64,000 bases of DNA from assembly GCA_037903355.1 (NCBI GenBank), contig JBAJFE010000014.1, forward strand, positions 4,526,001 to 4,590,000, given 5' to 3'. The notes beneath the pieces are model-generated. The model did not search any database, was not told the DNA's origin, and saw only the letters and a program-made list of their open reading frames with translations. Positions within the stretch are counted from its first letter, which is position 1, and each line of letters starts with the position of its first letter. Position numbers and translations under genes: made by a program. Below are positions 14,939 to 63,162 of the stretch, piece after piece. Origin of the DNA: Trichuris trichiura (taxonomy: Eukaryota > Nematoda > Enoplea > Trichinellida > Trichuridae).

Positions 14939-16415
<1,477 letters not shown>

Positions 16416-29442: not shown

Positions 29443-30033
29443 TTTAATTTGTCTTTTTTCTTTCTTCTCGCTAGTGGGTGCGTTATTTACTGTGACAGTT
29501 GTGCAGTTTAGCAACCCGTTTGCTAAATCAACGTTTATTCAAAAACGTTAAATCACAGAGCTTTCGGGCCTCATCTGGGTCCGTGATCAGCGCTGTGCGG
29601 CCCGTCGGATCGATCCTTATGTTAGCAAGCTGGTCCGCAAGACCGACCTCGGCAGAGACCTCAGCCGTCAGGTCCATCTTGACCCGTCAGGCCTTGGTCC
29701 CACCTAGTCAGTCAGACTTCGCAGCGAGCACCCAACCGACCTTCCACGACGGCGGCAACACTGACAGTGGGCGGCAACGAGTCAACAAACAATATACACC
29801 CGTCTGTTTAAAACAGACGGCTTTTAAATTGTCTTCTTCCCTGTGTCGTTACCTTATTTCTTCTTAGCCTTTCGTTGTCTTCCTTGTGGTCCGCCCCGCA
29901 AAAAAAATTTATTTAATTTCATTTTTCTTTCTTTCTCGCTAACGGATGCGTTATTCACAGTGACAATTCTGCGTTTTGGCAACCTGTTCGTCAAATTAAT
30001 GTTTATTACGAAACGTTAAATCGCGACGCTTTC
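29443..30033. repeat. Direct repeat pair within the duplication centre
   Basis: About 29443-29573 and 29905-30033 share, in the same direction, CTTTCTT..CTCGCTA, GGTGCGTTATT / GATGCGTTATT, TGTGACA / AGTGACA, then AACGTTTATT..AAACGTTAAATC and a GCTTTCG end. They look like two diverged copies of one element terminus. Confidence 0.6.
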
Positions 30034-31220: not shown

Positions 31221-31334
31221 CACAATGGATAATCCATTCCTACGGTGCCTGTTTGATAGCATCTATTACTGAGAGCAATGCCAAAGGTCGGAAAATGCAC
31301 ATGTTTAACCTTCTGTCTATCGCCGATCGTGTGG

Positions 31335-31650
31335 TAAATTTTATATTTACGGAAGCAACTCGCTTTTGGCCAATACGTAGTGAGTTTTTAAAACAATACT
31401 TATTCCGTAGCTTTCAGGTACAAGCTTAACCCGTCGTCTGCGGAAAAAAATTAGTTTACCGCAAGATCTGACTGCCCAACGTGCTACTTCGCAGAATAAC
31501 AAATGAAAACGTCCGCAGTAAGTTAGCTTTCCGCCACTGACAACGGGTCAGGCATGTACTCGAACGCGAAGGAATAAATATTGTTTCAAAAATTGACTGT
31601 ATGTTGTTCAGAAACGAGTTGCCTCCGTAAATATAAAGTCTACCGTAAAA
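31335..31650. repeat. Hairpin element with ATATTTACGGA arms (right arm mirror)
   Basis: Mirror of 28900-29215, with a few substitutions. Confidence 0.65.
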
Positions 31651-44964: not shown

Positions 44965-45120
44965 AAGTTGGCGGCATGTTTGGATTCTTTGTAGGGAGAT
45001 TGTCCCGTTGAGAAATACAAAAAAAATTTATTGGTGAGAGGTAGCTTTCGGGCCGCGCGTGACCCATCTTCAGCGGTACTAAAAATTAATAGACATTAAT
45101 TTTTGGTACCGCTGAGGATA
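44965..45120 (-). repeat. Hairpin-family element piece with hammerhead-like core (minus strand)
   Basis: Contains AGGGAGATTGTCCCGTTGAG, shared with the hairpin at 20.4 kb. On the minus strand 45046-45073 reads CTGAAGATGGGTCACG, then GGCCCGAAA, a CTGANGA / stem II / GAAA core. The neighbouring TTAATTTTTGGTACCGCTGA and its complement form a short hairpin around 45085-45110. Confidence 0.65.
45046..45073 (-). ncRNA. Hammerhead-ribozyme-like core
   Basis: Minus strand: CTGAAGA, T, GGGTC, loop ACGCGC, GGCCC, GAAA, then GCTACC. N7 is A. Stem II pairs 5'-GGGTC with GGCCC-3' (one wobble). The extra pyrimidine after A9 is present, as in the other copies. Activity is untested and the cleavage strand is uncertain. 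Confidence 0.45.
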
Positions 45121-45141
45121 TATTTATTCTCCCTTACCGCA

Positions 45142-45170
45142 CTGACGACGGAACAACAGCAGTTCCGAAA
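45142..45170 (+). ncRNA. Hammerhead-ribozyme-like core
   Basis: Plus strand: CTGACGA, C, GGAAC, loop AACAGCA, GTTCC, GAAA, then CGTACG. N7 is C. Stem II is different in sequence from the GGGTC/GACCC copies yet still fully paired, which is compensatory change and supports a structured RNA. It lies just upstream of the hairpin-family half copy at 45175-45330. Confidence 0.5.
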
Positions 45171-45174
45171 CGTA

Positions 45175-45330
45175 CGGTACAAAATCCTTCTGTATTTTCT
45201 CTAACAATCTGCTTATCCATCCACTGGTAGGTCGTTTTGAAGTTTATTTACAGACTCATCAAACAGGTCAAATTTCTGAACTGAAAATCATCCATGAAAC
45301 AACCTAAGCCTGTTACAAAACACCCAGTTT
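45175..45330. repeat. Half copy of the hairpin element seen at 5.8-6.06 kb
   Basis: TATTTTCTCTAACAATCTGC, TTATCCATCCACTGGTAG and GAAACAACCTAAGCCTGTTA match the right arm and tail of the element at 5945-6085. The left arm is absent. Confidence 0.7.
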
Positions 45331-46808
45331 TCGGAAACATGCGGTATCCTGAATATTTCGCATATCATTGCTTTTAAGGTATTTCCGCTGATGGGTAGCC
45401 ACTGATACCCTTAAGAGGGATATCCGAGCAACTACAAAAATATCTGCGCATGCTGCGTGCATATCATGACCCTTCTTTTACTAATAAATGTCGGCTTATC
45501 TGTTAGCCATGGTTCCGTGCCAAAATCTTACGTCTTCATGAACCTTTTTTAAAAATACGAAATATAACAAGTAATCGTTTAATTTTACTTACCATGAATT
45601 CGTGAAATCGTTTGGGCGATCAAGAGTATCGCGACTTTTGAACACATTTTAGGATGCATAATTTACTCTTAACTGTGCACCACTTTAGTGCTGGTATAAT
45701 CTTCAGTGATTATCTTTTGTTGCTCTCTTGATCATTTGTATTTGCTTTACCAAGCAGGTGCAACAAATAAGCAGTTATAGGTAACTACAGGATTCTTCAG
45801 GCAATACAGTACTTGTGTTTGCCACTTCGCAGTTACCATAATACCTCGTGCTAATGAGAGAAGTCCTTTAACAAACAGAGTCATCGTTTATCCTAAATAA
45901 TCAACGGTCATCATCGATCGATCACCTGCAGAAACTCTTATTCTACCCTCTGAAGCATAGCTTCTTACAAAACAATAGCGTTCAACCTTTACTCTGACGT
46001 TGACAGCTTGCTATATGTATTAGGTTTCAGTGAAAAGCTCTAGAATTAATCTACTTCGTAACCCTCAGTTTTGCTGTTATTTCTTATGTGTATTCCGTTT
46101 ACGTTCCGAACCTGATTGCTGAAGCTGACTCTTCCTCTAGCCCAATAATAAACTTCAGATAAGCTTTCATAGAGTTTCTTTATTTACGAAGATATTTCAC
46201 TGAAAATACATTAGTTTTTAAATATTGACAGAGTTTGTTCTGGCATAATGCGATATACTCGTGCCATGTGGTACATATGCGCGGGTACGCCCCAACTTTT
46301 GCGGCTGATTTGCCAAGGCCGCACTGACATGGTCAGTCAGATTTATCCTCTCGTTGCTGTCTAGTGCTCTATGCCGACCTGTCGATGAACCGATTTTCGG
46401 CGAAACGATCTCCACCAGGACTTTTCCCCTCACGGAAGGTGGTGCCTTTCTTTCGTAGAAAGTCTACTGCGTTCCGCTCGTCCGCGGAATGGATTCGCAA
46501 TCCTGCCATGTGATACAAATGGTGTTGAGCAACGCACTATTGGTGACAGCGCAATTTGATTTCTTCCGTTCTTGCAGTTTGATTTCTAAAAGCATCTGGC
46601 ATGGTTTACAGGTCAGCTTTGTAAAGCTTGTCCGCAAATATGCTTCAAGAATGAACGCAAATGGAATAGTTTAAACTGATGAATTAAGCTTTATATTGTG
46701 TTCTTTGGCTAATTGAAGTGAGAAATTTTTTATCCGGTGCAATATGGCAATACAGCTCCTTCACTTTGCCACAGCAAATATGAAAGGCTGTAGTTTTTAA
46801 GCTTCAGA
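45331..46808. other. Intergenic, no gene supported
   Basis: A minus-strand frame at 46218-46433 has a faint transposase-like helix-turn-helix look but is not convincing. A tail-like block CCGTGCCAAAATCTTACGTC at about 45515 resembles the hairpin-element tail. Confidence 0.35.
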
Positions 46809-46982
46809 ATGGCATCAAATGTTTTAGTACGATGCCTGCTAGTTTGCTCGGATCCTGTGATGCCGTCAGAATATACGGATGAATATCCTGCGCAGGCTCA
46901 GATGTATTTTCTGGCAAAATTTCGCGACTGCCTACGTCCTGTCATCAGGGTCAGAGTTAAAGCTGCATTTGACGTGACGTAG
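46809..46982 (+). CDS. Small open frame, unrecognised
   Basis: 57 codons from ATG (MASNVLVRCLLVCSDP, then YTDEYPAQAQMYFLAKFRDC). Composition looks protein-like, but there is no recognised family and no downstream exon could be joined. It may be a chance frame. Confidence 0.2.
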   Translation: MASNVLVRCLLVCSDPVMPSEYTDEYPAQAQMYFLAKFRDCLRPVIRVRVKAAFDVT

Positions 46983-47739
46983 CCGTAGTCCCAAAAGCTC
47001 ACATAAAAAAGTTTTAAAGTTTGCAGCGGCTGCTGAAACGTACACATCGATAAAATCTTTTTACAAAAAGGCTTCAACGTCAACGAAACTCGTCATGTTA
47101 TTAATAACATTCTCAGAGGAATCCTTTTGCTAATTTTGGTCTAATCTATGCTTGTGCGTAAGAAGATAGCGTCTTAATGCGATTAATTATAAAATGCGGT
47201 TGTAAAGGCAACGGTGTGGCGATATTATCGCCTGTTAAATTGATAAAGCTCAACTTGCCCGTATTACAGAAATAAATGATTAAATATCTGCTTTCAAGCG
47301 TACATCAATCCTTACATCATCTGCACTTGCAACATGAGAACAAATTGGAGCTTGCTACAACCCTACGATTTAATCCTGCGGTTCGGTTGCGGCTGCTTTT
47401 AAAGTGTGATAATGTGCCCCTCCTGAGCATCAGTTTACGATTCTTACATGTAGCTTTGTTGGAGTTTTTGTTGTAACTAGGTAAGAGCCCTGCTAAGATG
47501 ATGTTCTTATGAACTAGATTCATTGCGTATACTTTTTTCCCACTGGAATTGGCTATGGTAAGGGTTGATTCCCGCCTAAATGCTGTTTCTGATAACAAGA
47601 AAAACTTTCTTGCTGCGAGAGAACAACTGCTGTTTGCAGTTTTGCGGAACTATTTGACTAGCATGCACTGTTGTTCAGTTTCTTTGAAATTTAAGTGGTC
47701 CTGATAATGTTAAAATGTAGCCTTCCTATACACGTACGT
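46983..47739. other. Intergenic, no gene seen
   Basis: Short frames only, AT-rich. A 93-codon minus frame at 47317-47598 has no recognisable domain. Confidence 0.35.
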
Positions 47740-48005
47740 ATACTGATCGCGGATGCACATTAAATATTCAGTAAATAGCTGCGCTCTGGATTGAAAATGA
47801 AGCTCTTTCTAATGGGCATGTGAAAATGCGTAATGGTATTACGGAAATTCAACCTGTTGAATTTGGAGGACAGACGCTTCCCGAAACCTTCAAAAAATAG
47901 ATTTCACAGTTCGAAGTTCGGTAGTACTACTATGGAGAGTCCCATTCGAAAAAACTTCTCAGATGGCGTGCTACAGACTGCGTTTATTGGGAGCATCAGT
48001 GCCTA
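47740..48005 (+). repeat. Interspersed repeat family A, copy 3
   Basis: GCGGATGCACATTAAATATT, then GAAATTCAACCTG, AATAGATTTCACAGTTCG and TATTGGGAGCATCAGTG match copies at 18.2, 20.2 and 40.2 kb. It abuts the pogo-type element at 48010. Confidence 0.65.
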
Positions 48006-48009
48006 TACG

Positions 48010-49560
48010 CAGTGGACCTTCCAAAGTTGGCCACCTCTATATGTCGACCACCTCCCTAAGTTGACCGAATTTTGGCCAGTTGGTTGGTCCCACGTTAATA
48101 AGCGCAAGGACAACCTGTATACGTCGACCACCGTAAGTGGGAAGTTAACCGCTTTGGCCGTGACGTGGCACATGGACGCAATGCTAGTTTGCTCTCTGTG
48201 AGTTGATCACCCAACAGACTGGAAAAAACTGGCCAACATAGAGAGGCTGAATAGATTAGTACGTGTACGCGTTTTATTCTGTTGCACAGCATTTACCGGA
48301 GACCTATTAAATGGCGAGGTGCGTAAAAATAACATTGTAAAATCATGCATAAGCTTTTTAGGGGCTACAATGCTTGCTGAAAAAGGTGTCAATTCTAGTC
48401 TGGTGCTTGTTCTTACTACAAACGTAAGCGATAAGGGCGGCCTCAACGCTAGCTATCCCGCTCAGCATCCCTGAGCATTTTTCGGCATTGAAAATGTCTT
48501 TTTCCTTGAAGCCACTGGCGAAATAATGAAACCGCGATGAAGTTTTCCAAGACCTCGACGAGAACTTCGCTAGATTTGCCGCATAAGATTTTCAGAGAAA
48601 TCTTACAACGGAGCTTGAACTTCTCCAGCCATCCGCTTGATGCTCGGAAAGCTGTCAACCTGAATTCCACGGCGAATCTTCTAACAACTTCCTTGCTCAT
48701 TGGGACAGAGATTCGTGCATTAGCTGCTCTCATTTGCTTAAACCAACTTAACACTGCTTCACTGACTTGATCGAAGGATGTTCTCCCCTTTTTCCGCTGC
48801 GCGTCTCTATTTTCCTTTTAATATCTTTCCAAGTACTCACGTTCTGGATGTTGCTAACGGGTCTTGCTGACATGGAACCGTTCCGCTGTCTACCTTTGAC
48901 TGTTGGTTTCGAGAAAGCTAATAAGATGCGGTTTTTCCTTCAGTGCCGACTCTCTCGATTCTTTTCTTTCGGCCATAGTGCATACCGTACCCCGCTTGGT
49001 AGCTATTACTGTGGAAACAGGAATGCCTTTACTCGTCAAGACAAGTTAAGGCCACCTCCCTCATGAATACAGCAAAGCGAATAAAAAGAACTCAGCTGGA
49101 CGCGAACGGTTACAAGGAGGCTCGATTCCTCATATCTCGCGCCCTGCGAGAATGCTGCCGACGCCTAGGTAGGGTGTGTAAATGAGAAAACGCGCATGCC
49201 GGCAAGCATAAAAGAAGCATCGTCAAAGCGACGGAACCGGTTCTGTTGTCTGGACTTTCCAATGCGTGGTAATAAAAAACTTCGCTATATTGAGTAATAG
49301 ATAACACTATCTGGCACTGACGGTTAACAGCTCCTAGCGACTGACCTCCCAAACTGGAGTGGCCAACTTACAGAGAGAAAACTAGCATTGAGTCGATATA
49401 CCACGTCACGGCTAAAGCGGTCAACTTCCCACTTACGATGGTCGGCGTATAGAGGTTGTCCTTGCGCTTATTAACGTGGGACCAACCAACTGGTCAAAAT
49501 TCGGTCAACTTAGGGAGGTGGTCGACGTCATAGAGGTGGCCAACTTTGGAGGTTCCGCTG
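48010..49560 (-). mobile_element. Pogo-type element with ~175-bp inverted terminal repeats
   Basis: 48010-48185 and 49385-49560 are inverted copies (CAGTGGACCTTCCAAAG against CTTTGGAGGTTCCGCTG; AAGTTGACCGAATTTTGG; AGTGGGAAGTTAACCGC). TA lies just outside the right end (49561-49562) and near the left end. It carries a broken transposase on the minus strand and sits in a Tigger element, cutting its transposase short. Confidence 0.78.
48449..48976 (-). pseudogene. Pogo-type transposase, N-terminal remnant
   Basis: Starts MAERKESRESALKEKPHLIS near 48976; after two or three stops the CENP-B-like DNA-binding segment is clear: AVLSWFKQMRAANARISVPM and FRASSGWLEKFKLRCKIS. The DDE domain is missing. 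Confidence 0.7.
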
Positions 49561-49561
49561 T

Positions 49562-50209
49562 ATGTTCTGGGGTGATAGCCCTTTTGGTTCACCGTCTCTT
49601 TGAATTCCTCTGAGAATGTCGAGGCAGCTCCGAGATCAGCCGATGCCGCTCCCCAGTGATCTTTAAGTTCTTGAGGTTGAAGCGCTTCAAGTATTTTGCT
49701 AGCCATCCTTTGCTAGCAGTAAACCCTTTTCTCTTGTCCTCTGCAACAGCGCCAGAAAAGTGCTCTTATAATCTCAGCGCTTTCTCCCGAATAACTTTCC
49801 CGTCGACATGGACATGTTTTCGTGACATGTCCTCTATCCAAAAGCTTAGCGCTTTCTCGGCTTTCACGAGGACTTTGTTGCGAACTTCAGCAGCTCTTTT
49901 CGCCAGTGAAGGGTCGGGATGCACGCTTCCTCGAATCTCAGCTTCCTGCTGTTTTATCGTACGAATGCTGGATTTATTCTTACCGATCTTGCGGCCCACA
50001 TCAGCACCTGACAATCCGCTTTTCAAGAAATGAGGGAATGAGACAGCTGCGCATAGATTGCTAGCACGGGGAACACAATAGAGCAGCAGTGGTGCAGGGT
50101 GGGCTTCGGTTTGTGATTCGTAGAAAACGTCGGAGGTCAACGGACTGATCCGCGTCGCGACTTGGCAGACGGCGTAAAGCTCATTCTGTGTTGTTTCCGC
50201 GAAAGACAC
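49562..50209 (-). pseudogene. Tigger transposase N-terminal remnant
   Basis: Reads DVGRKIGKNKSSIRTIKQQ, EKALSFWIEDMSRKHVHVDG, KVIREKALRL, a stop at about 49765, then KGFTASKGWLAKYLKRFNLK, NLKDHWGAASADLGAAST and FSEEFKETVNQKGYHP, the CENP-B-like helix-turn-helix region of Tigger transposases. The catalytic half is missing. Confidence 0.8.
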
Positions 50210-50347
50210 CGTGGGCGCCGCTGCTACTTCCGGAGGGAACTATGTTGTGAAGACCCTATTGGAGACAAGACTCCACTTGACCTCCTTTGGAGTTTCCGCT
50301 GCTACTTCCAGGAGGAACTATGCTGTCAAGACCCCGAGGGCCGACTG
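49562..50347 (-). mobile_element. Tigger-type element, 5' part, truncated by a pogo insertion
   Basis: The outer end GAGGGCCGACTG at 50336-50347 is a Tigger terminal repeat with TA outside. Internally the minus strand encodes the N-terminus of a TIGD1-like transposase up to about 49562, where the pogo element's repeat begins. Two 40-bp near-copies (GCTGCTACTTCC..AACTATG..AAGACCC at 50217 and 50297) form a subterminal repeat with an 80-bp period. Confidence 0.75.
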
Positions 50348-51045
50348 TATATATCTATAGTTCTGTCTTTGCAATTCAAACGCGCACCCATAACGTTTCT
50401 GTAAATCTCCGGCCTGAAAGAGTCAGTGAAAGGCTTGCTCGAATGCAGAAGTACGTGCTATGACTAAGCTGCTCCAAGAACGCAGACTAAATAAATTACT
50501 CCGTCCAGACTTGCTATTAAAGTATCCATAAAGCGCTGAAAAATTCTAATTGCCATCGCAGTCCCGTACAGTAGGCCAGTCACTCGCCAGGGGCTGAATC
50601 TTGGGCGAAGTCGGAAGGTCGCCAGTTGCACTAAACCGTTAAAGTTTGACCTTAGTCAGTTCAGCGGCAATCGACCACAAAAAGTCAAAGTATCCTGAAA
50701 CAGAAGGTACTCAGGCTTAAATCTGCACTTTGGCGTCTCCAATCGACCCAGTGAGACTGAAATTAGAATTCCAGCTGCCAGCTTGCGCCTACGACGTCTG
50801 GGGCAGGGGGCGCTATCGCAAAAAGCATTGAGAAACTATGGTCTATGTTACTGATTCTCATGGGGACAATTTCAGGTTCCAGGGAATGGCGAACACCGGA
50901 AAGAAGTTTACTAGTTAAAGGTAGAACTTGGTGCAACTGTAGCCAGAACCCATATTTTGCTTAGCCGTTACCGGGCTCATTAAAGAAACTCTTCGCATAG
51001 GATTTGTTTTCAGGCATAATCAGCTTGTGCTCTTTCGAATCGGTG

Positions 51046-54000
51046 ATGAAGACTAACGCTGAAGTTACCAATGCCGGTGTGCAATTGCTGGACAGGTCGC
51101 TTCCGTTGAAAGACCGTTTTCGTGCTCTTTTCCTTCTCCGGAACATAAATGGCAAGGACAGCATCGATTGGATAGTTAAAGCTTTTGACGATTCGTCTGA
51201 CCTTCTTAAACACGAGCTTGCTTATTGCCTCGGTCAGATGAGGAATGTTTATGCGCTTAATGCTCTGATCGAAGTGCTTTCTGATGATAGTCAAGCGGCA
51301 ATAGTCAGACATGAAGCAGGTACAGAATAATTGCTTCCACTCATTTTTCTTAGTTGTCTCATTGCAGCCGAAGCTATTGGAGCAATTGGCGATCCGTTAG
51401 GAAGCAAAGTCCTGGAAAAATACGTAAAGTCTCCTATTTCTGAGGTCTCCAAGATTCAGTGTTCAAAGAACCCGTTTAATTACTTCCTTTCAGTTAGCAG
51501 AGACCTGTCAGTTGGCAGTGAAACGGATTGCTTGGTTAAATGACGCTGATAAGAACGATTGCTTTCTGCAAGGTCGATTTGCTTCAATAGGTTAGTCCTG
51601 ATTCTGGATCTATAAGGGTGTTTTGATTCAGAAGGAATGCCCCGTCACAATACACCCAAAACCCACTGGAGGGCTGATTAGTCGAGTTTACAGCAGGGGT
51701 GAATAGTTTCTTAATTCTTTGTTTAACGTGTTTGCGGTTGAAACATACAGGAGCTGATGCCTTACAGAGAATGAATGCGCGAGGAGTTATTAGAAAAAAT
51801 ACAGAGTACAGTAGTATTTGGATTTCGGAGCTTTAGGAATGCTGCCAGCGTTCATCGAACGCTAACGACGAAGCTCTAAAACCAATGTAACACTATGCAT
51901 TATACTTTTTCCTGAATACTGCTTCGTCAAGCCATAAGATTTCTTAAGCACCTGCCTCGACCTTTTTTGCAGAAGTGTTTCAAGGAATTTATCTCTGTGG
52001 TCGTAATCTTGTTCTAGGAGGCCGTATGATAAACAAGCGCTGTAGGGCTTGAAACGATTTCCTTGGAAGGTATGGCGAATAACCCTTCGCTCATTCCTAG
52101 TTCAGCAAAGAATGTGCGAAAATTTTCATTCTGGTGTACGTGGGAACAGCTAAAATCATCTTTCTTTCTTCAAACTCACAACGGTTTTGTGTAATATCGC
52201 GCGGTGATTTTTTAACGTATATTTCCTCAGAACTTCGATGATATTCTTGGTAGTCTTGATGATTGACGGCTTAGCCAAAAAACTCTTACGTTTCCTACCT
52301 CTGCGTAACAGCGAAAAGTGTAACTACGCTTTACCTCGTGGCCAACACACGTTAGACTCCTCTTCATAAGAAAAATGATGGCATAGTATTTCGGTGTACC
52401 TTGTCTCCATCAGCGTAATAAGGAGGGCCGTTCTATTAACGGTAACGGCTTAAAGAGCATTGGCTCCTCGAATCGTAGCTCTGATGTGATTTAATTGTTC
52501 GAATGTTATCTGTGTAAGAAACAAACCAAAAAAAAGCAGAAAAAGAGAAATGCAATGAATGAAAGAGCCACAAGAATTTAGAAATAAATAAAAGACGATT
52601 ATGTAAGGAGAAACGAAATAGTATGATAAAATTAAAAGTATTCATAGTCAAGCCAAGATTTGAAGGCAACCTAAATGTAACTAGAGATAATAGGGAAACG
52701 ACAAATAATATATTGATAACATGTTTTCAACTTTAGTTGAGATCGTTCAGTATAATTACATGTATGGTCTGGAAAGTCCGTAACTTTTAGGACTTCTCAT
52801 GCCCGCTCTTCAACCATGAGTTCTGAATGTAGCAGTTAGCACGCTGGTATGTGTATCGGCAGGATTTAGTCCAAGACATGGTTTGTTAATAGTTTGAAGT
52901 CTGTTTTGGCTGGGACAATCGGTTGCATGCCTTCAGCTAAAGTTTATCCATGCATGTGCCACCATGCTTTCTGTTAGTACAGTTACATTCAAAGGTCACC
53001 GCAAAAGAACAAGACATTGGAAGTCTGAAAATTACGTTCTCAAATTAAAAGTTTAATTCTCGAACGGTTTTGAGGTTTCATTATGGTGTAAAACATTTTG
53101 CTAAGAACCGTTACAGAGATTGAATATATCGCAAAGTGTTTCTAAAGTAAATTGAGTACATCTGTACCTCAGTTACTCGAACTGAATGGAAGCAGGGATC
53201 GTCCTTATAATCGAACAACCGTTGAAGTCGTTTGAGTTTTTATTCTGCGTCTGTTTAGCATGAGCTTTACTTCTTTAGGATAACATCAAGTTTTGGTCTT
53301 CTGAAATTTTCGCAGAATTTTCAACCCGTTGTTTAATTAACGTTTATTGCAAAAACGTTTTCTACGGAGCTCTTGGGTCTACTCATGACCCGTTATCTGC
53401 GTAATTCCGCCGCCTGTTGGGTCGGTCTTTATGGTTGCAAGCCGCTCCATCCGACCAGGTCTCTGCTGAAATTGGTCGGATGGAACAGGTTGCAATCATA
53501 AAGACCGAGCCGACGGGCGGCGCAGTTACGCTGATGACGGGTCATGTGTAGACCTGAAAGCTCCGTAAAGAACGTTTTTGCAGTAAACGCTAAACAACGG
53601 GTTGAAACTTCCACGAAAAATTTTTTAGAAGAACAAATTTAAAAACCCGTTAAAGGTCAAGTTTTAAACAATTCGCTAGTCGTCAACATTAACATCGGGC
53701 TTAAATGATGAAGCAGTCAGTCATAGGGATACAAGAACTAAGCTTTGGGTAATTTTGTGGTCGCGCAATAGTGCATCAAATCAGCGTCCGTAGTGAAACA
53801 TGCCGCGCATTATTCGAGTAACGAACAACCAAAGATCCTACATCGAAGAAGCAATTACCAAACGGCAAATATTATTTGCTGTTTCCAGTCAAAATTAACA
53901 TTCCACTAATCGGAAGGGAATGTGAGCAACGTTCAGACAAGCACACGGTGTCGCTTACCTTGAAAAAGAAATGAAAATATTTGACATTTTGAATATCCAA

Positions 54001-55478
54001 AATATTGTTTAGAAGTGTTGTTTTCACTAAATATTGCGAGACCAGATCATAACTGATTCAAAAGCTCTGAATGTTTTTGTTCTTGTTAAATCGGCCCGTC
54101 TTGGGTTACTATTCGAAGACTTATATGCTTGATGCAAAGCGTTCTCTGTTCAAGAGGCAGTCATTGTAAACTAATTTTTCTCACACCAATAAACTGACGA
54201 TGCAACACCTATTGACTTAAGCTGAAAACGAAGTCTAAGTCCTGAAAGCTTCGGAACCCCTTATTACATTTTATGTCATTAAAACGGACCAATCGTGATG
54301 TTTTTGGTGAGAATACGCAGAATGATAGTTTTGGGATGACTATACTGTCAGCATACTGCTCTTTCTCCTTGAAAGAATTTTTATGTATCATTCGCTAAGA
54401 ATCACTTGAGTGCAGTAGCTGCGATAGTGCGAAGTCGATGTGCTAACTAAAACAGTACCTAATTAATTAATGAATTGGTAGCAGATACTCCACGTATAAG
54501 CTCAGTAAAGGGATGATTAACATGCTCAACAAGGCAGGTAAAGCTGCATCACGCCAATCAGAGCTGCTCGCAATTTAATGCGCGCAAATATAGTTTCTGC
54601 TGAATTATCCATTTGTGTACATTTTCTGACCGCATATGGCCTCACGTAGCTGAAAGCACGACTTCCTGTCTATGTCCTTTGCTTTTCTAAATGTAGAAAT
54701 TGGCAAGGATCGTGTGGATATGTTGTGTATATATCATAACATGAAAGTGCATTTGGTTACCTAAACTTTCAGTTCTTAATAGTTTCTGCGTTGACGATGG
54801 AAGGGAAAACAAGTTATGCAAGTTCTCTTTGATCATTTATGTCAAGAATGATTGAGAAACTAAGAGCACTTTTACCGCTATCAATGCATATGATCTGTCC
54901 ATAAATCGAGTTGACTTAAGTGAAATGTTGCCGCGTTTCCTTCCTTCTTCGCCTAAAGGGACATGTTTAGACCCAGCGCCTCCTTTTCCATGTGAGGACA
55001 GTCCTACTTCATTGAAAGCAATGGAGGAACTTTTCTTGGATGAAGAAGCGCAGCTGTGGGACCGCTATCGCGCAATGTTTTCTTTGAGAAATATGGCTAC
55101 AGAAAGTGCGGTATCCTCATTAGCGAAAGGTTGCAAGTACAAATTGCTTCCGAATGGTGGATTAACTTCTCTTTAGGTTTATTCTGCCAGAAAAGCGCTC
55201 TTTTCCGTCATGAAGTCGCATTTGTATTGGGTCAGTTGTGCTCACCTGTAGCTGTTCAGTGCCTTCAAAAAGTCCTTGCGAACACGAAAGAATCTGGTAT
55301 GGTTCGCCACGAATGTGCCGAAGCGCTGGGTTCCATTGCCACTGAAGAATGCAGACAAACCCTACGACGCTTTTTATATGATCCGGAGCCTCTGGTCAGC
55401 GAAAGCTGTGAAATAGCTCTTGACATTTGCGACTACATGGAAGGGTCTGATTTTCAGTACGCTTCAGCACATTCATGA
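51046..55478 (+). CDS. DOHH: Deoxyhypusine hydroxylase (DOHH)
   Basis: Five exons: 51046-51319, 51368-51444, 51494-51590, 54959-55129, 55177-55478; all joins are GT..AG and in frame. DOHH is the cytosolic di-iron HEAT-repeat enzyme that hydroxylates deoxyhypusine on eIF5A, completing hypusine. Seen in order: FRALFLLRNINGKDSIDWIV, LLKHELAYCLGQM (iron-binding His-Glu), IVRHEAAEAIGAIGDP (His-Glu), AETCQLAVKRIAWL, VDPAPP-like linker (LDPAPPFP), DRYRAMFSLRN, SALFRHEVAFVLGQL (His-Glu), MVRHECAEALGSIA (His-Glu), then DYMEGSDFQYA matching the family end. All four HE pairs are intact. The third intron is 3.37 kb, against about 47-50 bp for the others, and holds a hairpin element with a ribozyme-like core. 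A TTTTCAG acceptor at 51013 suggests a leader exon or trans-splice site before the ATG. Confidence 0.92.
53295..53656 (+). mobile_element. Hairpin element with hammerhead-like core, in DOHH intron 3
   Basis: About 170-bp arms meet near 53463 (TTTCAACCCGTTGTTTA against AACAACGGGTTGAAA; GGTCGGTCTTTATGGTTGCA against TGCAATCATAAAGACCGAGC). The same 9 bases TCAAGTTTT flank it at 53286-53294 and 53657-53665, a likely target-site duplication. A short one-sided tail (AAATTTAAAAACCCGTTAAA) follows the right arm. The right arm holds an intact core; the matching left-arm core is mutated. Confidence 0.8.
53531..53559 (+). ncRNA. Hammerhead-ribozyme-like core (DOHH intron)
   Basis: CTGATGA, C, GGGTC, loop ATGTGTA, GACCT, GAAA, then GCTCC. 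N7 is T, the canonical base. The GGAGCT at 53376-53381 could pair with AGCTCC as stem III. On the sense strand of DOHH, so it would be carried by the pre-mRNA. Extra C after A9; activity untested. Confidence 0.5.
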
Positions 55479-56860
55479 ATTTCTACATGTTGCACTTTTT
55501 GTTCAAAGATAGATTCTTTGTGATGGCCTGATAAACTTGCATGTATGTCTATGACAGCTGGAGAAAAGCCTGTTGGAAGGTTGCGCCTTCGCAGTCAAGC
55601 ATGATCAAAGGGTTGTAGGAGAGACGGGCGAGGTTAGCGAGAAGGTTTTAAATAGGGAGCGTCTAAAAACTTCCCAGACGTCGTCTCTCCCACAGTCTCA
55701 GATTAACGATAATAAAGGGGTCACAGAGTGGCCATCAGTGGACACTATCCGTCATCGTTAATCCTGCTTTTGTTGGAGACCGACGTCCATTAACATCTCT
55801 GCTCTGTTCCTTGTGACAGGTGTCTGGCGTACAAACTCCACAAAACCGTTGGTGTCAGAGTCTATAATCAATGAAAACAAACTATAACTAGTAGGTGGCT
55901 ATATTCTTGATCATATAAATTGATTGTTTTATCGATCATTTCTTTGGTGATCCCAGTAAACACTGCCTGAAAAAAAAGTTCGGTTAATTTCCTAACACCA
56001 TGCACGGGCAATATTTACGGGGATCGTGAAAGACCGATCGAGAGTGATCGACATATGTAACTAAGGATTCTTACAGTGAGAAGTATTCCACTTGCGACAA
56101 AGTTAATAAAACAACGAACATCCAGTGAGCCTTATCGACCAGGTTATCACTGACAGAGTTAACCATGTACGTAAGCAAACCCACTTCTAAACCTGCACTC
56201 TTAACACCTTTTTCAAGAGTTTTACCATGCAGGATTTTGAGAACCAATCCAAACTTTAAGCAGAATATTAAATTTCAGTGTTTTGCAAAAGTTCCCCCTA
56301 CATATGATCTCGCTTCAGAAACGGCAAGGCTATTGTACCAGTCGACAAGAAACCGGTGGCCATTTATGAAGTTAAATGTGAGTGCTCTCACATTTCTGTG
56401 TCTTTACTGAAATGCCCGTTTTTTTTCTACTTGCGCTTTTTCTCTGCCAAAGTACGGTCAGTGGGGTCTGCTAACCACGAAAAATTCATGTGAAACAGTA
56501 GAGTTCCTCATGCTTTTTTACATTTTTATTGGGCCCCAAAATTGGCCAGAAACGTCTCTCCTTATGTGCATAAATTTTGATAAACTCCGCAAATAGTGCT
56601 TATTTTATTGTACGGAATGATGAGATGTAATAGACTATTTGGTAGATGAGTTGTTATTGTAATCCATTAATGGGAAATCTGATTTTAATTGTTTCGTGGT
56701 TCGCCTTCACTCTTCAGATCCTGGAAATCCCCTGAAAGGTTTCCAGTGCGTTCAACGGCAAACGGCATATTAACGAAGCCGCATTGCTCAAGCCCACGCT
56801 GTGCAGAGGTTGGCTGTAAAGTATCTCAAGTGACTTTGCCCACGCACAAATCCTGCTGGC
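55479..56860. other. Intergenic, no gene seen
   Basis: Contains the DOHH 3'UTR, then AT-rich sequence with short frames and no domains. Confidence 0.4.
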
Positions 56861-56868
56861 CTTGAGAA

Positions 56869-57070
56869 AGTAACGAAAATTCACGGTGTCACCGTGAATT
56901 TTCGTTACTTCATAGCCCTATATGTTAACACCGCTGAAGACGGGTCTCGTTTAACCCGAAAGCTCCGGAATAATAAAAATAAAAATATTATCAACGGGAC
57001 AAACTTTCCGTAAAAGAAACTCGACGTGAAACTATACGGTCCCGTACCAAGAAGTTACGTTTACAAAAAG
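56869..57070 (+). mobile_element. Hairpin-family element with hammerhead-like core and tail
   Basis: It starts with a perfect 20-bp inverted repeat around one base (56869-56888 and 56890-56909), then a CTGANGA..GAAA core, AATAATAAAAATAAAAATA, and ends with CCCGTACCAAGAAGTTACG, which matches the tail of the 20.4-kb element (CCCGTACCAAAACATCAC). One long arm appears to be missing. Confidence 0.6.
56934..56961 (+). ncRNA. Hammerhead-ribozyme-like core
   Basis: CTGAAGA, C, GGGT, loop CTCGTTTA, ACCC, GAAA, then GCTCCGG. N7 is A. Stem II has four clean pairs. The same extra C follows A9. Confidence 0.45.
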
Positions 57071-57644
57071 AGAACCGGTTTATGCAAAAAACGGCAAGAG
57101 AGCGAATGATTTACTGGTAAAGACGGAACGGGTGTTGATGTAAAACCTATATTGTTCATTTTAAACTTTACTATAAACTCTTGCAGTGTAAACAAAATTC
57201 CATGTACACTCCATTGTCAAAGTTCCTCCATTCTTGCCAGCGAAACTATCGCTTGGTTCAAAAAAAGCTTGCGCTTCGAGCAACACCAGTATAACTAAAT
57301 GTAGGTAGAGCTGTAAATGTTTTCGTCCTCGAAAAACTTGCGCAACGGCTAGCCGTTTTTATTTTCAACAATGATAGAATTTGCGGGATGCAGTTTATCT
57401 AGTCGTCCGTTTAAAATAACCGCCTTCTCACCGACTACACAATTATGTTCGGTTCTCCATTCTTTTAACGAATATGTGAAGCATAGTAGTCAGGTCGAAG
57501 TCGAGTCGACATTGTACTTTCAGTTATTACCACCACGATAAACCACTTTTTTATTCTATACAGTTAATACATACAACGAGTAAATGCTCTTAGCGTCGCA
57601 ACTTAAGTCAAACTGACTGAACGAATAACAACCACGGTAATAGT
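57071..57644. other. Intergenic, downstream of DDX42
   Basis: No gene seen; it contains the DDX42 3'UTR on the minus strand. Confidence 0.4.
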
Positions 57645-58426
57645 TTACTCCCATCTGGACTTTTTACAGACAGAACTTGGAGCAGGCGAGCCTTCGGCTG
57701 AAGGTGACTCGGATGGTGGTTGGATGTGTGCCAATCGAAACGCTTCTATTCTTTTTTTCCACTCAGGAGTAGGATCAGTTGCAACATGTGCTTTGTTATC
57801 CCATGCGGTATCTGCACTTGCCTGCTTGAAGGTATTCAGGTAGGAAGACTATAAGAGCAATTTTAGACTAGTTAAGGACAAGGGCGTAAACGCACAGCGT
57901 AAGCAGACTTAATAGCAGCCAAACGACTAGATCCTGACGACGTCGCAGTGTTAGAACTTGCGACGAGGCCATGCGTTGGTTCATCACTCAAACGTTGCGC
58001 TAAGAAGGCAAGAGTTTGAAAATTGATGTACAGTTAAGATGCAGCTACCATCTTTTCTTTTTTCGGTGTATCCCAAACCGAAGCCTCCAATACCAGGTCG
58101 TTTTGCTTTTTCCTTCTTAAAACGCGTTTTTCGGAACCACGTGCTTTGCATTGCCAAGTCCAAAAGCGCTTTTGGGACGTTCTGATTGACAGCTTCCAAA
58201 CTTCTTACCAAGTGACCTGCAAATTCTTTGTCCTTCTCCGTAACAAGTGTATACGCAGATCCTTTTTCTCCTGAAATCAGCCTTGATGCAAAAGTATGGC
58301 AACAGTTCCGCCCGGCTATCTTACCAGCTCTTCCTGTGCGACCTATTCGGTGGACGTGTGTGTCAGCGTCACGAGCAACGTCGTAATTGACCACTGTTTT
58401 TATAGAAGGTATATCCAGACCACGTG
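57645..58426 (-). CDS. DDX42: DDX42 DEAD-box RNA helicase, 3' exons only
   Basis: Exons on the minus strand: 58325-58426 (start uncertain), 58049-58270, 57896-57999, 57645-57848; introns 49-54 bp. DDX42 is a nuclear helicase tied to U2 snRNP and pre-mRNA splicing. Seen: [20 protein letters not shown], motif [12 protein letters not shown], then [73 protein letters not shown] and the terminal KKSRWE, which match DDX42 rather than other DEAD proteins. Upstream of RGLDIP the motif V residues (normally TDVAA) are replaced by unrelated NVILSMLEA. The exon probably begins at an acceptor-like GCTTGAAG (58426), but no further helicase exon is seen to 64 kb. It may be a truncated copy, or the gene continues beyond a large insertion. 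Confidence 0.8.
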
Positions 58427-58436
58427 CTTCAAGCAT

Positions 58437-59120
58437 AGATAGAATGACGTTATGTCCAATATCATGAAACTTTACACTAGACGCTCACCACGGAACGAGG
58501 AGGGTCCCGAAAGCTATTCCTAATTCAATAAAAGTGACTCTACTGCACATAAACGAAACAGTGGAGTTTCGAATTGCTTTAAATGGTTACACATGTACGC
58601 CCCGCTTTAAGGCTCATGGAATCAAGTTGTTCGTAAAGCAAAACTGCAAAAAGTGTGGAAGCAGTCCCTATTATTTAACACAGCAAACCGGTCTGATCAG
58701 ATGGACCCAGGTCAGGAACATAGCAATTCAACAGTGCAAAGTATTGACAATGACGCATCCTATCATATTGATATTGGAAATTTCGCTACTTTGTTTTCTT
58801 TCTTTTTCAATGAAATCCATTTCCAGGCAAAATGGAACGCACCTGTAAGTTTTCCTTGGCTTTTTTGCTTCCTTAAACCCGTACGGCTAATGCACGCAGT
58901 GATCGAAGACAAAAGGAAGCTGAAAGCCCACCTGCTCAGAACTATAGGAGCTTGATGCTGAATGCAACTCCTCTGACACTTGATCTGTAGGAGCAAGTGT
59001 CGCTTTCAAGCAGATTTAATGATAAGACAAAGACCGTGCAAAGCAAACCATAAAGGCTATTGTGTCCTTTTGCCTTCCTCATAACAGCGAGTAACAGTTA
59101 CCAGGAAAATACCACTGAGC
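58437..59120. other. Repeat-derived region upstream of the DDX42 exons
   Basis: GGGTCCCGAAAGCTATTCC at 58493-58511 is the half-core of the hairpin family. The rest may be the 5' part of the hAT element, but neither a terminal repeat nor a BED finger is clear. Confidence 0.4.
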
Positions 59121-60475
59121 AATGACACCGTTCAGAGACGAATCGATGCAATAGCTAAGGACACTGAAGAAACGTTCTGCTCAATGCTCAGAGAGGGAAC
59201 TTCGTTGCAGTTGGATGAACTCACATTGCGTGGTAATGAATCGCTTTTACTGGCCTACGTCCAGTTTATAAAAGAAGAACAGTTTGTAGAAGAATTACTG
59301 TTTTCGAAAGAATTGAGTACAGATAAAAGGGTGAATCTATCTTCCAAGTAGTGGAAGAATTCTTTATGGAAAAAGCTATTTCCCTTCAGAACATAATAGC
59401 CGTAGCAACAGGTGGTGCACCAGCTATGCTGGGCTGTCAGCGGGGATTCCTCAGCTGTCAGCGGGGACTCATATCGTATCTAAAATTCATGGTTCCCAAC
59501 TTCCTGTGTATCCATTGTGTATTGCACAGGCAGCATCTCGTAGCCCAACATTTGAGCCCACGTTTGAATAAATCCCTTCAGTATGTCATCAACGCCATAA
59601 ACAAAATCAAAAGTAATCCACTCAGTGACAGACTTTTTCGGCGATCATGTGATGAAAATAACGAGGACTTCAATCGTCTACTTCTTCACACAGAAGTGAG
59701 ATGGCTATCAAAAGGTCCCTGCCTGTCGAGGTTTTTCGTCCTGTACGAATCCGTTCTTCAATTTTTTGAAGAGGAGGACGCTTCGCTGAGTGAGAACTTG
59801 CATAATCGGAAAGCGGACATCCTGTACTTAGCAGACTTGCATTTTAAATTTAATGAAATGAATAAGCAGCTCTAGGCGGACGACCCGAACTTGGTTAAGA
59901 CAAAATCCGTCATCTCTGCGTTCATGTCAAAGCTGCTTCTCTTCAAGCGCGACTTTGCAAGGGGGGAGTTTTCCCAGTTTCAAAGTCTCGCCCAAATGGG
60001 AAACGAAGGTGGGATCTCTGAAGCGGATGCGGAATTGTACTGTGAGCACCTCCAAGCGCTGCACAACGATTTCACACGTCGTTTTCAGTACATTTTGTTT
60101 ATGGTGATCCCAGACTGGGTGATCAATCCGCTAACAAATTTAGACGACGAAGACATCTCACTGCAAGAAGATCTGCTGGAGTTGCAGTCGAACGTGGAGC
60201 TGAAGGCCAGGTTGTCACAAGGTTATCAGCAGTTTTGGCTGCAGAAAAAAATTCCGGAGTTGTACCCTGGCGTATGGGATGTTGTAAAAAAAATCCTGAT
60301 TTGTCTTCCCTCATTGGAGCGTGCATTTAGTATCGTTACGGACCTAGTGACGAAGAAACGCAGTCAGCTGCAAGTAGTCAGACACGGCGATCTACGTCTG
60401 CGAGTTACCTCGATCGAGCCCAACATCGACGGGCTAGTTCAATTGCATCTGGGCGAACCAAGCAGCTCTCGTTGA
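59121..60475 (+). pseudogene. hAT transposase pseudogene (ZBED5/SCAND3-like)
   Basis: Frame pieces: 59121-59335 (RRIDAIAKDTEETFCSMLRE, LQLDELTLRGNESLLLAYVQ), a shift near 59340, then 59351-59872 (ISLQNIIAVATGGAPAMLG, CIHCVLHRQHLVAQHLSP, LLLHTEVRWLSKGPCLSRFF), a TAG at 59873, and 59891-60475. The end holds the hAT dimerisation signature (LPSLERAFSIVTDLVTKKRS). Order and motifs match the hAT proteins domesticated as ZBED5/SCAND3 in vertebrates. One frameshift and one stop make it inactive, but breaks are few, so it is fairly young. Confidence 0.85.
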
Positions 60476-60589
60476 ATTCTCCAAAAACAGTTTGCAGAAA
60501 TAAATTTGTACAGCTGTAGTTGACCTTCTAGCGTTGCGACCATTTCAGCCAATCGGTACGCAGAAATTGGCCAATCAGTGCGCTTAAAA

Positions 60590-60671
60590 TTGGCCAATCA
60601 GAATAGGGGGGCCCGGACGCTCGGAAGCGTTCTCAGGCAGGCCCAAACGGCCTTCCGCTTGAGAAACACTG
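60590..60671 (+). repeat. hAT 3' end and terminal inverted repeat
   Basis: TTGAGAAACACTG at 60659-60671 is the hAT-type end (CAGTGTTTCTCAA in reverse). The preceding CCAATCAGAATAGGGGGGCC block is shared with the MITE at 3.9-4.15 kb, which supports this transposase family as the source of those MITEs. Confidence 0.65.
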
Positions 60672-61014
60672 TGTTAGCTCATGATAACCAGTGAGGATGC
60701 AGTGTGTCGTTCTTTCGCCGAAATGTTGAACAGTTTGCGTCTCCATTCGCTTCGTGTTTGTGAAACGTAGAAGGCGATGCTATGCGGGCGCTGGCATTTG
60801 AAGTGGGATGAAGTTGTTTCTTCGGACCACGGTGCTTCTTTGGTTCGTCAGTTTCAGTGACGTACTGGGACAATTTGAACATACTTTTTTTTATCAGTTT
60901 CGTCTAACTTTGTTCTCGCGTGTCGCTTTGTATCGCTCTCTCAGTAGCAACTGAAACAACCATGCGACTAACGAAGAATGAGTTTCCTTAATGAAGGAAT
61001 TTTTCAGCTTAGTG
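60672..61014. other. Intergenic, no gene seen
   Basis: Lies between the hAT end and the pogo remnant. Only short frames. Confidence 0.4.
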
Positions 61015-61017
61015 CAT

Positions 61018-61798
61018 TATGATGAGGAGAAGCTATAGACCCGGATTCAAGTTGGAAGTCGTCAAGGTGGCGAAAGAAAGCAGCATTGCACAGGCGACCA
61101 GGAAGTATGGCGTTACCCGGAAGATGGTGATAGATTAGAGGCGACAGGAAGAGGCTCTAAAGAAGATGCCAAAGAAACAACGCGCAAGACGTTCAGGCAC
61201 CGCCTCGTGGCCGGAACTGGAGAACGCTTTGGCAGAATGGGTCCGAGAACAGCGACAGAGCGGCCATATCGTCACAGGAACAGACATGCAAGATAAAGCG
61301 ATGAACTGGGCGCGCTACAATCCACACTTATCCTGCGGCTTTACTGCAACGCATGGATGGTGCAGCCGTTTCGTGAAAAAGAAGGACCTCGTCCTGAGAC
61401 AGAGGACGAAAACTGCGCAGAAAATGCCTGTGGATTTGAAGGTGTGATGAACAGCACGGTAAAAATTACGGAAACTGCTTCCTGCACGACGGTCGGTGAA
61501 AGCGACGATCCTTGCAGGACAAACCTTGAAAGTGACACGCGCAAGGCGGTTTCCGGAAATAGCCGTCAGATATCACCTAGTCCATGAAGCGACGCTCAGC
61601 CCCCGCCAGGATAAGGAGTATATAAAGAGCACCCATGGAGGGCTAAGGGGGTGAAGAGATTCATGTTGTGTCGGTACAATAAAGTGTTTGACAACCCTTT
61701 CCTGCGTGCGTTTGTCAACTGCGTTTACTACAGAAGGATAAGCTGGACGACACAGAAGACGATGGACTGCCAGACAGTGACCAAGACCATTCTTAGCT
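61018..61798 (+). pseudogene. Pogo-type transposase, deleted remnant
   Basis: Starts MMRRSYRPGFKLEVVKVAKE, QATRKYGVTRKMV, an in-frame TAG at about 61136, then SWPELENALAEWVREQRQSG and GFTATHGWCSRFVKKKDLVL: the two CENP-B-like DNA-binding domains of pogo transposases. The DDE part is gone. About 61735-61798 encodes an acidic end (LDDTEDDGLPDSDQDHS) like the pogo C-terminus, so the middle was deleted. Confidence 0.75.
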
Positions 61799-62130
61799 TA
61801 ACCTTTTTTTCACTGTAATTTATGTTTTCCGCGTCATGTACCATGTTTATCCGCTTCTACAATCTATTCATCCGTGCTTTACATGCAACAGTTGTAATAG
61901 ACGTCGAATAAACCTATTCAATACGATTCATTTTTCATAGCTTACGCAATGCTGTACAACACGCGCTAATCGGCAGCTGATTAGTTTTCGCGTTGAGGCT
62001 GAGGCAAGGCAGTTTCAAGTGAACGGACGATTAGCATTCACAGGAAACTGACTAATCAGAATTGATCTAGACTTGAGCAATGAGCGTCGTCGTCATTGGG
62101 CCAATCACTACCACCCTTCACTGACGTAGG
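61799..62130. other. Intergenic, no gene seen
   Basis: No supported feature. Confidence 0.4.
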
Positions 62131-62740
62131 GGAGTTCGTATAGGCCGTGAAATACGGTAGTTTCTATGGTACAGATGCATTATCTATGGCATGCATAACT
62201 TCATGCTTGGAATATGCACAGAAACTATGACATGTACATGGTTTAGATTGCATATAAAGAAGGCATTTATAATATCTACCCTCCCTACGGCATGCATGTG
62301 GTGTCTATTTTGTTTATATTTGTATAGAAGGAATATTTAGTGTATATATGGCCTACACATGGCATACATTGCTTATAAATGAGACATTTGTGATATACAC
62401 GGTCTCCAGCTGGACGTGAAGTATCTATGGCAAGTATACCTGCGCACAGGACATACTTATGTCATATGTGGTATGCAAGTGGTACAAATTGTTTTTAAAT
62501 AGATGATGTATAGTATCTCGAATCTCCAGGCGCATTTATAGTGCCTACAGTTCACATTATTACACGAAGCAAAACTTTATGGCTCTTATAGAATACGCGT
62601 GAGATGCATTGCTTATGAAGAAGCTATTTGTAATGTCTAGTCTCTCTACACTACACATGCGTATATCGCATGCATGTCATATATGCTATAAATATGTCCT
62701 CCAGCAAGTGCATATGCCGCAGAGTTTGCACGTGTAGCTG
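62130..62740. repeat. Degenerate tandem repeat, 120-bp period
   Basis: Anchor ATTG followed by CATATAAAGAAG / CTTATAAATGAG / TTTTTAAATAGA / CTTATGAAGAAG occurs at 62247, 62368, 62488 and 62608, spaced 121, 120 and 120 bases. Each is followed by (A/G)TATCTA..CTCC(A/C)-like sequence. About four to five diverged units; the outer edges are vague. Confidence 0.75.
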
Positions 62741-62786
62741 TAGACCCTGCATATCACAAATATCCAATTTAAAAGCAATGTACATT

Positions 62787-63162
62787 TTCATCACTACTTT
62801 ATACGGTATGTTTTCTTGCCCGATGATAGGTTCTGAAATTAAACCGAAGCAGATGCCCTACCAACGGATGGATGAGCAATTATTAAGGAAAAATACAGAA
62901 CAAACACTTAACAGTTCGTAGCTTTCGGGACTAACCTTGTCCCATCGTCAGCGATAGTGGTAATGGTCTGGACAAGGTTAGTCCTGAAAGCTACGAACTG
63001 TTAAGTGTTTGTTCTGTATTTTTCCTTAATAATTGCTCATCCATCCGTTGGTAGGGCATTTGCTTCAGTTTAATTTCAGAACCCATCAACGGGCAAGAAA
63101 ACATACCGTATAAAGTAGTGATGAAAATCCATTGCCCCGTTAAGAAGCACCCCGTCTTCAAG
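62787..63162. mobile_element. Hairpin element with target-site duplication and hammerhead-like core
   Basis: Arms about 62787-62945 and 62970-63128 are near-perfect inverted copies (TTTCATCACTACTTTATACG against CGTATAAAGTAGTGATGAAA). The 13 bases AGCAATGTACATT flank it at 62774-62786 and 63163-63175. After the right arm comes a one-sided tail (CCCCGTTAAGAAGCACCCCG, then TCTTCAAG), comparable to the tail of the 20.4-kb element. A core is intact on the minus strand of the left arm. Arms of this length and identity suggest a recent insertion. Confidence 0.85.
62923..62951 (-). ncRNA. Hammerhead-ribozyme-like core
   Basis: Minus strand: CTGACGA, T, GGGAC, loop AAGGTTA, GTCCC, GAAA, then GCTACG. 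N7 is C. Stem II (GGGAC/GTCCC) is fully paired and differs from the GGGTC and GGAAC versions elsewhere. Confidence 0.5.

Follow-up and report, generated by a model that had tools for sequence, protein, structure and literature searches.

Probable minimal type I hammerhead motifs in the terminal repeats of Penelope-like retroelements of the whipworm Trichuris trichiura

Introduction

What are the short CTGANGA...GAAA motifs that recur among the inverted repeats of the whipworm Trichuris trichiura, and which element carries them? We addressed this question in a 64-kb stretch of contig JBAJFE010000014.1 (C1; assembly GCA_037903355.1, 72.7 Mb), in which a preliminary description had drawn attention to five cores resembling the hammerhead ribozyme. 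This stretch, C1:4526001-4590000, is called the window here, and coordinates refer to it unless prefixed C1. An ORC-like frame has 98% identity to a Trichuris trichiura protein and 81% to one from T. suis. The sites probably represent a minimal type I hammerhead-type motif in the pseudo-long terminal repeat (pLTR) of Penelope-like retroelements (PLEs), predicted to cut RNA at GCUH|CGG when two copies pair via an AGCU or ACGU helix III. Established at the level of sequence are the core, co-varying stems, a near-absence of G at the cleavage-site position 17 (H17), a position behind reverse transcriptase (RT) and GIY-YIG genes in 12/12 loci, a tandem arrangement at one locus, outward-facing pairs and a clustering of junctions near the predicted cut. 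The short foldbacks in the window would then be terminal regions of such elements, either solo or with internal deletions.

Minimal type I hammerheads of Penelope-like elements have reportedly been described by Cervera and de la Pena in 2014 and by Lunse, Weinberg and Breaker in 2017. A literature search over titles and abstract openings returned no report of Trichuris hammerheads, and the 2014 and 2017 collections may include one. The hammerhead class is known; unusual in the present variant are the extra pyrimidine, the loop-less helix III and the outward pairs, a combination that may already be in the 2017 set. Statements attributed below to papers with PMC numbers refer to excerpts of those papers.

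Results and Discussion

All five sites lie exactly where the preliminary description had placed them, each with CTGANGA, one pyrimidine, a 4-5-bp stem II and GAAA. The order of elements in the motif is stem I, CUGANGA, an extra base, stem II, GAAA, a tetranucleotide that forms one half of helix III, H17 and the second strand of stem I. A core of the form CTGAAGA-C-stem II-GAAA-GCTC occupies 56934..56965 (+), with its predicted cut at 56965|56966 (E 1.7e-16). The core at 62919..62951 (-), predicted cut 62919|62918 (E 1.3e-14), sits in the left arm of a foldback element at 62784..63128 whose 159-nt arms are 97% complementary; only stem II onward is left in the right arm (62968-62993, E 0.46). 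The core at 53531..53563 (+), predicted cut 53563|53564 (E 5.6e-13), lies in the right arm of a palindrome and faces outward from a decayed partner in the left arm at 53349..53413 (-) (E 1.3e-4); this pair belongs to an inverted-repeat (foldback) element at 53304..53622 with a predicted RNA fold of -233 kcal/mol. A GGGTC-type core at 45042..45073 (-), predicted cut 45042|45041 (E 9.2e-9), has a poor stem I (ACCG against CCTC). Its neighbour at 45142..45174 (+), predicted cut 45174|45175 (E 1.1e-6), is of a second type with stem II GGAAC and helix III ACGT.

These E-values come from R1, a covariance model trained on 30 distinct sites, all outside the window. Training sites had to match the core exactly and to have a stem II of 4 bp or more; a pyrimidine after A9 was not demanded, and was present in 30/30. 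R1 gave 22 matches in the window at E up to 10, 14 of these below 0.01, and recovered all five sites at ranks 1, 2, 3, 5 and 10 (E 1.7e-16 to 1.1e-6). A loose core pattern matched the window 11 times, compared with a mean of 1.36 in 100 shuffles (largest 4). Six of these 11 are doubtful or not the motif: the matches at 25031, 35497, 46920 and 54194 were not found by R1, and those at 4288 (E 0.01) and 42030 (E 0.011) are borderline. The copies had first been assigned to a single hairpin family; we found instead several related families, with stem II sequences GGGTC, GGAAC, GGCTC, GGGCC, GGGAC and others.

Genome counts were obtained with fixed-spacing patterns running from the heptamer to GAAA and ending in NNTH, with the reversed pattern as control. 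At 17-nt spacing there were 3195 matches against 60 in the control, and at 18-nt spacing 2552 against 94. The genome thus holds several thousand copies of the motif, well above controls, and the window shuffles together with the reversed-pattern controls exclude a chance origin of the pattern. When H17 was swapped for G at 17-nt spacing, 74 matches were left (control 9), compared with 3195 for non-G. Since hammerheads do not cleave after G, the scarcity of G17 is a specific signature, for which a founder effect may be partly responsible. Among the first 200 listed of the 5747 genome matches, a sample that includes chance matches, H17 was C in 106, T in 48 and A in 46. A15.1 and U16.1 were demanded by the count patterns, yet they are also kept in most rows anchored in the leader, the sequence that follows the cut. 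A family alignment in which the core was lost would have argued against a hammerhead; instead the core is kept: among 100 listed (of 164) leader-anchored copies of the GGGTC family, which were not picked by core, 80 retain the exact GAAAGCTC. A flank-anchored check of the family of the 62.9-kb site found the core in 3/3 readable places.

Conservation of the core is accompanied by co-variation of the stems. For the 30 training sites of R1, 97.5% of cells are paired in the named structure, and sliding the partners by one column lowers pairing to 67% or 38%. Double-change cells number 18 against 2.7 in shuffles, and the covariation score was reached by 0/500 shuffles, which ignore relatedness. 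Pairing of stem II among these sites is partly due to their selection. Stem I had no role in site choice; 95.6% of its cells are paired, and two of its three pairs show double changes. Stem II was also examined in distinct listed rows not picked for pairing, 66 in the 17-nt set and 72 in the 18-nt set. Pair 3 was formed in 61/66 rows (49.8 when shuffled) and 61/72 (49.6), pair 4 in 59/66 (40.5) and 59/72 (29.5), and pair 5 of the 18-nt set in 56/72 (39.7). All five pairs were formed together in 42/66 and 34/72 rows. Compensatory change in stem II, as claimed in the preliminary description, therefore holds for pairs 3 and 4 and for pair 5 of the 18-nt set only; pairs 1 and 2 are uninformative because they are nearly invariant.

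Helix III is reduced to a minimum. Of the 200 listed rows, 156 have GCT directly after GAAA and 19 have CGT, and the helix III half is a loop-less, self-complementary tetranucleotide in two forms, AGCU and ACGU. As neither form leaves room for a loop, two copies are needed to build helix III, and the textbook helix III within one molecule is absent. Such an intramolecular helix belongs to the textbook hammerhead, yet dimeric natural hammerheads are known, so it is not strictly defining. Penelope-type hammerheads are usually without the variable part of helix III and possibly cleave as dimers, as far as the excerpts describe them (PMC7761336, PMC6155905). An axolotl motif is similarly described as performing better as a dimer, its helix III being very weak and its tetraloop palindromic (PMC7229834), and a palindromic stem III/loop III has been noted for other hammerheads (PMC3088659).

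The position of the motif ties it to Penelope-like elements. The genome contains 71 matches to the GIY-YIG endonuclease domain, and we examined 12 loci: the six best GIY-YIG hits (L029-L034) and six picked for long open frames (L035-L040). Two of them, L030 and L031, are near-duplicates. RVT_1 and GIY-YIG were both present in 5/5 scanned frames (L035-L039), and T. muris and T. suis have relatives at about 48% identity. In 12/12 loci a sense-strand motif lies 94-320 nt past the end of the PLE-like coding similarity, which in L032 is itself cut short. The background of 22 R1 matches per 200 kb on both strands corresponds to about 0.02 expected per 350-nt sense window. The earlier pattern scans missed the downstream motifs of L029, L032, L034 and L040; those of L029 and L034 came up in a later listing, those of L032 and L040 only with R1. 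The window holds a relic of this arrangement: a stretch at 55996..56499 (+) resembles residues 591-755 of the L035 protein, within the RT/endonuclease coding sequence (tblastn, 29% identity, E 3e-9). Its frame is interrupted by stops, and it lies upstream of the 56934 motif on the same strand. Another PLE piece at C1:114.5-115.8 kb likewise has a same-strand motif behind it. A pLTR with a hammerhead, in tandem or inverted copies, is characteristic of Penelope-like elements and was found here. The proposed tie between the hammerhead cores and these elements is supported by the core, the H17 rule, the co-varying stems I and II and the position behind RT/GIY-YIG genes.

Copies of the motif are arranged both in tandem and as inverted pairs. 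In L033 the coding sequence is followed by two motifs, one antisense and one sense, that agree at every position over 64 nt; a second copy then begins, with its ATG in frame and 51 nt past the predicted cut. At L037 and L038 the frame is preceded by an antisense motif and followed by a sense one. Among the 100 listed leader-anchored copies, 28/28 neighbouring pairs within 4 kb face outward. In the family of the 62.9-kb site, including the window copy, opposite-strand neighbours within 4 kb face outward in 11/11 cases, and there is one minus-minus and one plus-plus pair. Where the two copies are separated by less than 300 nt, the pair matches the kind of foldback element seen in the window; a separation of 2-3 kb suits a complete element whose ends are inverted.

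Based on these observations, the following course of events can be proposed. Transcription would run through the terminal region, two RNA molecules or two tandem units would pair through AGCU or ACGU, and the dimer would cleave at GCUH|CGG. Cleavage would set the 5' end of the element RNA, yielding a 5'-OH RNA with a short leader that may be used by the element's protein. Motif-less copies that start near the cut would be integrated products of cleaved RNA, and foldback copies might arise by template switching or inverted insertion.

The 5' junctions of motif-less copies bear on this proposal. For all anchors alike, at least 4 mismatches out of 11 were taken to indicate unrelated upstream sequence. 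Apart from the 80 GGGTC leader copies with exact GAAAGCTC upstream, 11 of the 100 have small changes and 9 have unrelated sequence, which sets in 0, 2, 4, 4, 5, 5, 5, 5 and 5 nt ahead of the predicted cut. One palindrome accounts, with its two arms, for two of these nine junctions, and two have upstream sequence in common, so the nine junctions stem from fewer events. A control anchor inside the leader (79 readable of 170 rows) gave unrelated sequence in 0/79, against 9/100 (Fisher p 0.005, ignoring relatedness). In the GGAAC family (16 of 16 rows) there is unrelated upstream sequence in 6/16, with breaks 1-2 nt from the cut; this family has no internal control. Motif-less palindromes with at least one arm starting at CGGTATA occur within L038 and in the window as the foldback without a hammerhead at 5779..6058. 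In the latter, the minus-strand arm starts at the GGAAC-family predicted cut (TATA|CGGTATAG...). An initial local survey covered 36 leader loci that are incomplete: 9 start no more than 8 nt from the cut, 12 others start in the ribozyme and 15 in the leader, so breaks elsewhere are also frequent.

The clustering of junctions is consistent with cDNA copied from cleaved RNA. It could also reflect reverse transcriptase stopping at the folded motif rather than copying of cleaved RNA, a serious alternative to which we give somewhat less than even weight. Structured RNA halts reverse transcriptases, and 7/9 GGGTC-family junctions lie not on the cut but keep 4-5 nt upstream of it, a residue that cleavage alone does not explain and that is also consistent with premature stops. 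In the GGAAC family, 7 nt are kept in two further rows with a common upstream sequence, and an ambiguous row (4/14 mismatches) possibly breaks after GAAA. However, a stop at stem II, the first stable barrier, should leave GAAAGCTC after unrelated sequence, whereas all 80 GGGTC rows with GAAAGCTC have CCC, CCT or CCA ahead of it, i.e. stem II. The breaks 1-2 nt from the cut in the GGAAC family likewise speak against stops.

The extra base after A9 is the most peculiar feature of the motif. Of the 200 listed rows, 176 have C there, 14 have T, 8 have A and 2 have G. The pyrimidine that had been called constant is thus near-universal (190/200) but not absolute, with a purine in 10 rows. The base is as constant as the core, while the adjoining stem II varies. 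A standard core without it is ruled out by the 16-nt spacing, which gave 120 matches against 54 in the control, compared with 3195 against 60 at 17 nt. The motif does not follow the textbook rule that A9 leads directly into stem II, a rule that is not strictly defining, as a viroid exception is known. In that case, the plus-strand hammerhead of the chrysanthemum chlorotic mottle viroid, there is likewise one extra base between A9 and stem II; according to the excerpt it is A, which moderately slows trans-cleavage, while U speeds the reaction relative to A and C is strongly detrimental (PMC3705267). The whipworm base differs in being mostly C. This base gives the strongest reason to doubt activity; should the RNAs cleave, it would be the chief novelty.

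Besides the junction residues, several observations weigh against the reading of the motif as a cleaving hammerhead. By analogy with the viroid, the near-universal C would sit just where C proved harmful (PMC3705267). Predicted folds pair the extra pyrimidine with G12, the general base, in 5/5 copies; stem I forms in only 3/5 folds, and the fold z-scores of the five copies are unremarkable (-0.7 to -2.7). Foldback transcripts are predicted as hairpins of -233 and -287 kcal/mol with the motif hidden, and such hairpins would compete with the ribozyme. An inverted element supplies one sense copy per transcript strand, so a dimer would need two molecules. The outward arrangement is less clear in a family-mixed, core-anchored list (first 863 kb, neighbours within 800 nt), with 9 outward, 5 inward and 6 same-strand pairs; the four closest pairs (30-50 nt) in this list all face outward. 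Of the five covariation measures for the 30 sites, two were also reached in shuffles: pairs showing a double change (4) in 26 of 500, and additional pair types (10) in 36 of 500. Neither stem II pairs 1 and 2 nor pair 5 of the 17-nt set (58/66 against 57.1) exceeded the shuffles. A weaker PLE-like piece at C1:195.4-195.6 kb (E 2e-5) has no R1 match after it.

Rfam hammerhead models also gave no match in the window even at E up to 10, and none in two 101-nt pieces, one from the window and one from L035; the preliminary description had named a lack of such hits at a relaxed threshold as grounds for refutation, and this check came out against it. The negative is weak evidence because Rfam models also miss a hammerhead-like pair, itself read by eye, that flanks a Penelope-like element in another organism. 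A search of other genome contigs had returned 14 Penelope-like loci, and hammerheads were looked for in two, L041 and L042. L041 has two direct copies (119 and 3198), 3079 bp apart, around Penelope-like coding sequence; the automatic stem test found no pair in any register, and by eye the copies have a 3-bp stem II, a 2-bp helix III with a 2-nt loop and an A after A9. The L041 contig is titled as a Chlamydiia metagenome-assembled genome and is probably eukaryotic contamination of that bin. L042 has no hammerhead, and no Penelope-like relatives were confirmed in viral contigs.

These points raise the alternative that the copies are former hammerheads that have lost cleavage: their core would go back to active ancestors, and they would now spread in the form of foldback DNA or hairpin RNA. 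The expected harm of the extra C (PMC3705267), folds that lock G12 and bury the motif in hairpins, and the decay of many window copies all favour such a loss. We nevertheless consider it unlikely, given that the near-absence of G17 and the double changes in stems across several families need selection during amplification, and that near-identical pairs exist. A more specific version of the hammerhead reading would turn the same folds to account: the hammerhead may be self-locked, the pyrimidine after A9 pairing with the catalytic G12 and keeping it off until two copies join via AGCU/ACGU. Outward-paired elements would thereby set their RNA 5' ends, and motif-less copies and palindromes starting at the cut would record cuts. 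We put this forward as a speculation that is quite unlikely to hold in full. Least probable is a conserved internal loop that serves not as a ribozyme but as a site for the element's own protein, in reverse-transcription initiation or ribonucleoprotein assembly: the folds do show a two-stem internal loop and ribozyme mutants of a lizard Penelope-like element are stated to insert in vitro all the same (PMC11167929), but neither a ban on G at one unpaired position after GAAA nor a self-complementary helix III kept in two versions would be expected of such a site.

Taken as a hammerhead, the whipworm motif can be compared with known systems. With the minimal type I hammerheads of Penelope-like elements, as excerpted, it shares the helix order, the CUGANGA/GAAA core, the pLTR position, a nearly absent helix III, thousands of dispersed copies, tandems at some loci and a proposed dimer cleavage. 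It differs from them in the near-universal extra pyrimidine, the frequent outward inverted pairs and the motif-less junctions near the cut. Poseidon PAc of Anolis carolinensis likewise combines an RT and GIY-YIG protein, a hammerhead at the junction of pLTR and open reading frame, and tandem organisation (PMC11167929). The predicted cut 51 nt ahead of the start codon in L033 sets the whipworm element apart, and so do its genomic junctions, which cluster near the predicted cut, whereas the excerpt on Poseidon PAc reports no reads that start or end at the cut (PMC11167929).

In metazoan non-LTR (long terminal repeat) retrozymes and amphibian hammerheads, each short non-coding unit carries one type I hammerhead (PMC7229834). 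A comparable 475-bp tandem with 2.3 copies is found at positions 1309-2323 of locus L055 (C1:2085.5-2086.5 kb), with one hammerhead per unit and an outward antisense copy. PLE protein similarity was not found for this tandem, and it looks retrozyme-like in its organisation. Retrozymes mostly have full type I hammerheads (PMC7229834), and the whipworm foldback copies differ further in being inverted, not tandem.

With a compact genome, thousands of copies, two compensating helix III sequences and a pile-up of junctions, the question is open to 5'-end mapping of worm RNA. If these RNAs do cleave, the near-universal C would change the view of which hammerhead cores work.

Other Features of the Window

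R1 added a match at 31390..31454 (-) that had not been described before (E 3.8e-10). Decayed copies had been noted at 4.2, 4.8, 25.5, 25.85 and 29.56 kb; all are among the 22 R1 matches, and only that at 4.8 kb falls short of significance. The first two form the arms of an inverted pair (4156-4263/4731-4838), with a decayed copy on the left at 4163..4227 (-) (E 3.8e-4) and a possible one on the right at 4767..4831 (+) (E 0.065, alone not significant). The next two occupy the left and right arms of a palindrome at 25421-25897, at 25436..25500 (-) (E 1e-6) and 25818..25882 (+) (E 4.1e-8). The fifth is at 29540..29604 (-) (E 6.8e-5), and a further decayed copy lies at 29096..29160 (+) (E 1.5e-5).

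Some copies recur because of a large inverted duplication, 18619-29328 / 31222-41943, of 10.7 kb with 99.08% identity and 1.9 kb between its arms. It is either a real palindrome or an assembly artefact, and it doubles several hammerhead relics: the 25.8-kb copy recurs at 34675..34739 (-) (E 4.1e-8) and the 25.4-kb copy at 35057..35121 (+) (E 1e-6). A foldback at 20431-20575 / 39982-40126 scores 45.4 bits on an Rfam miRNA model, below the gathering threshold of 120 bits; it is one of the inverted-repeat relics of the window, and no miRNA is claimed. Two neighbouring open frames at 59327-60475 appear transposase-like by eye and have no Pfam match at E 0.01. Finally, a long GA-repeat tract at 15962-16539 reads as (RE)n in two overlapping frames.

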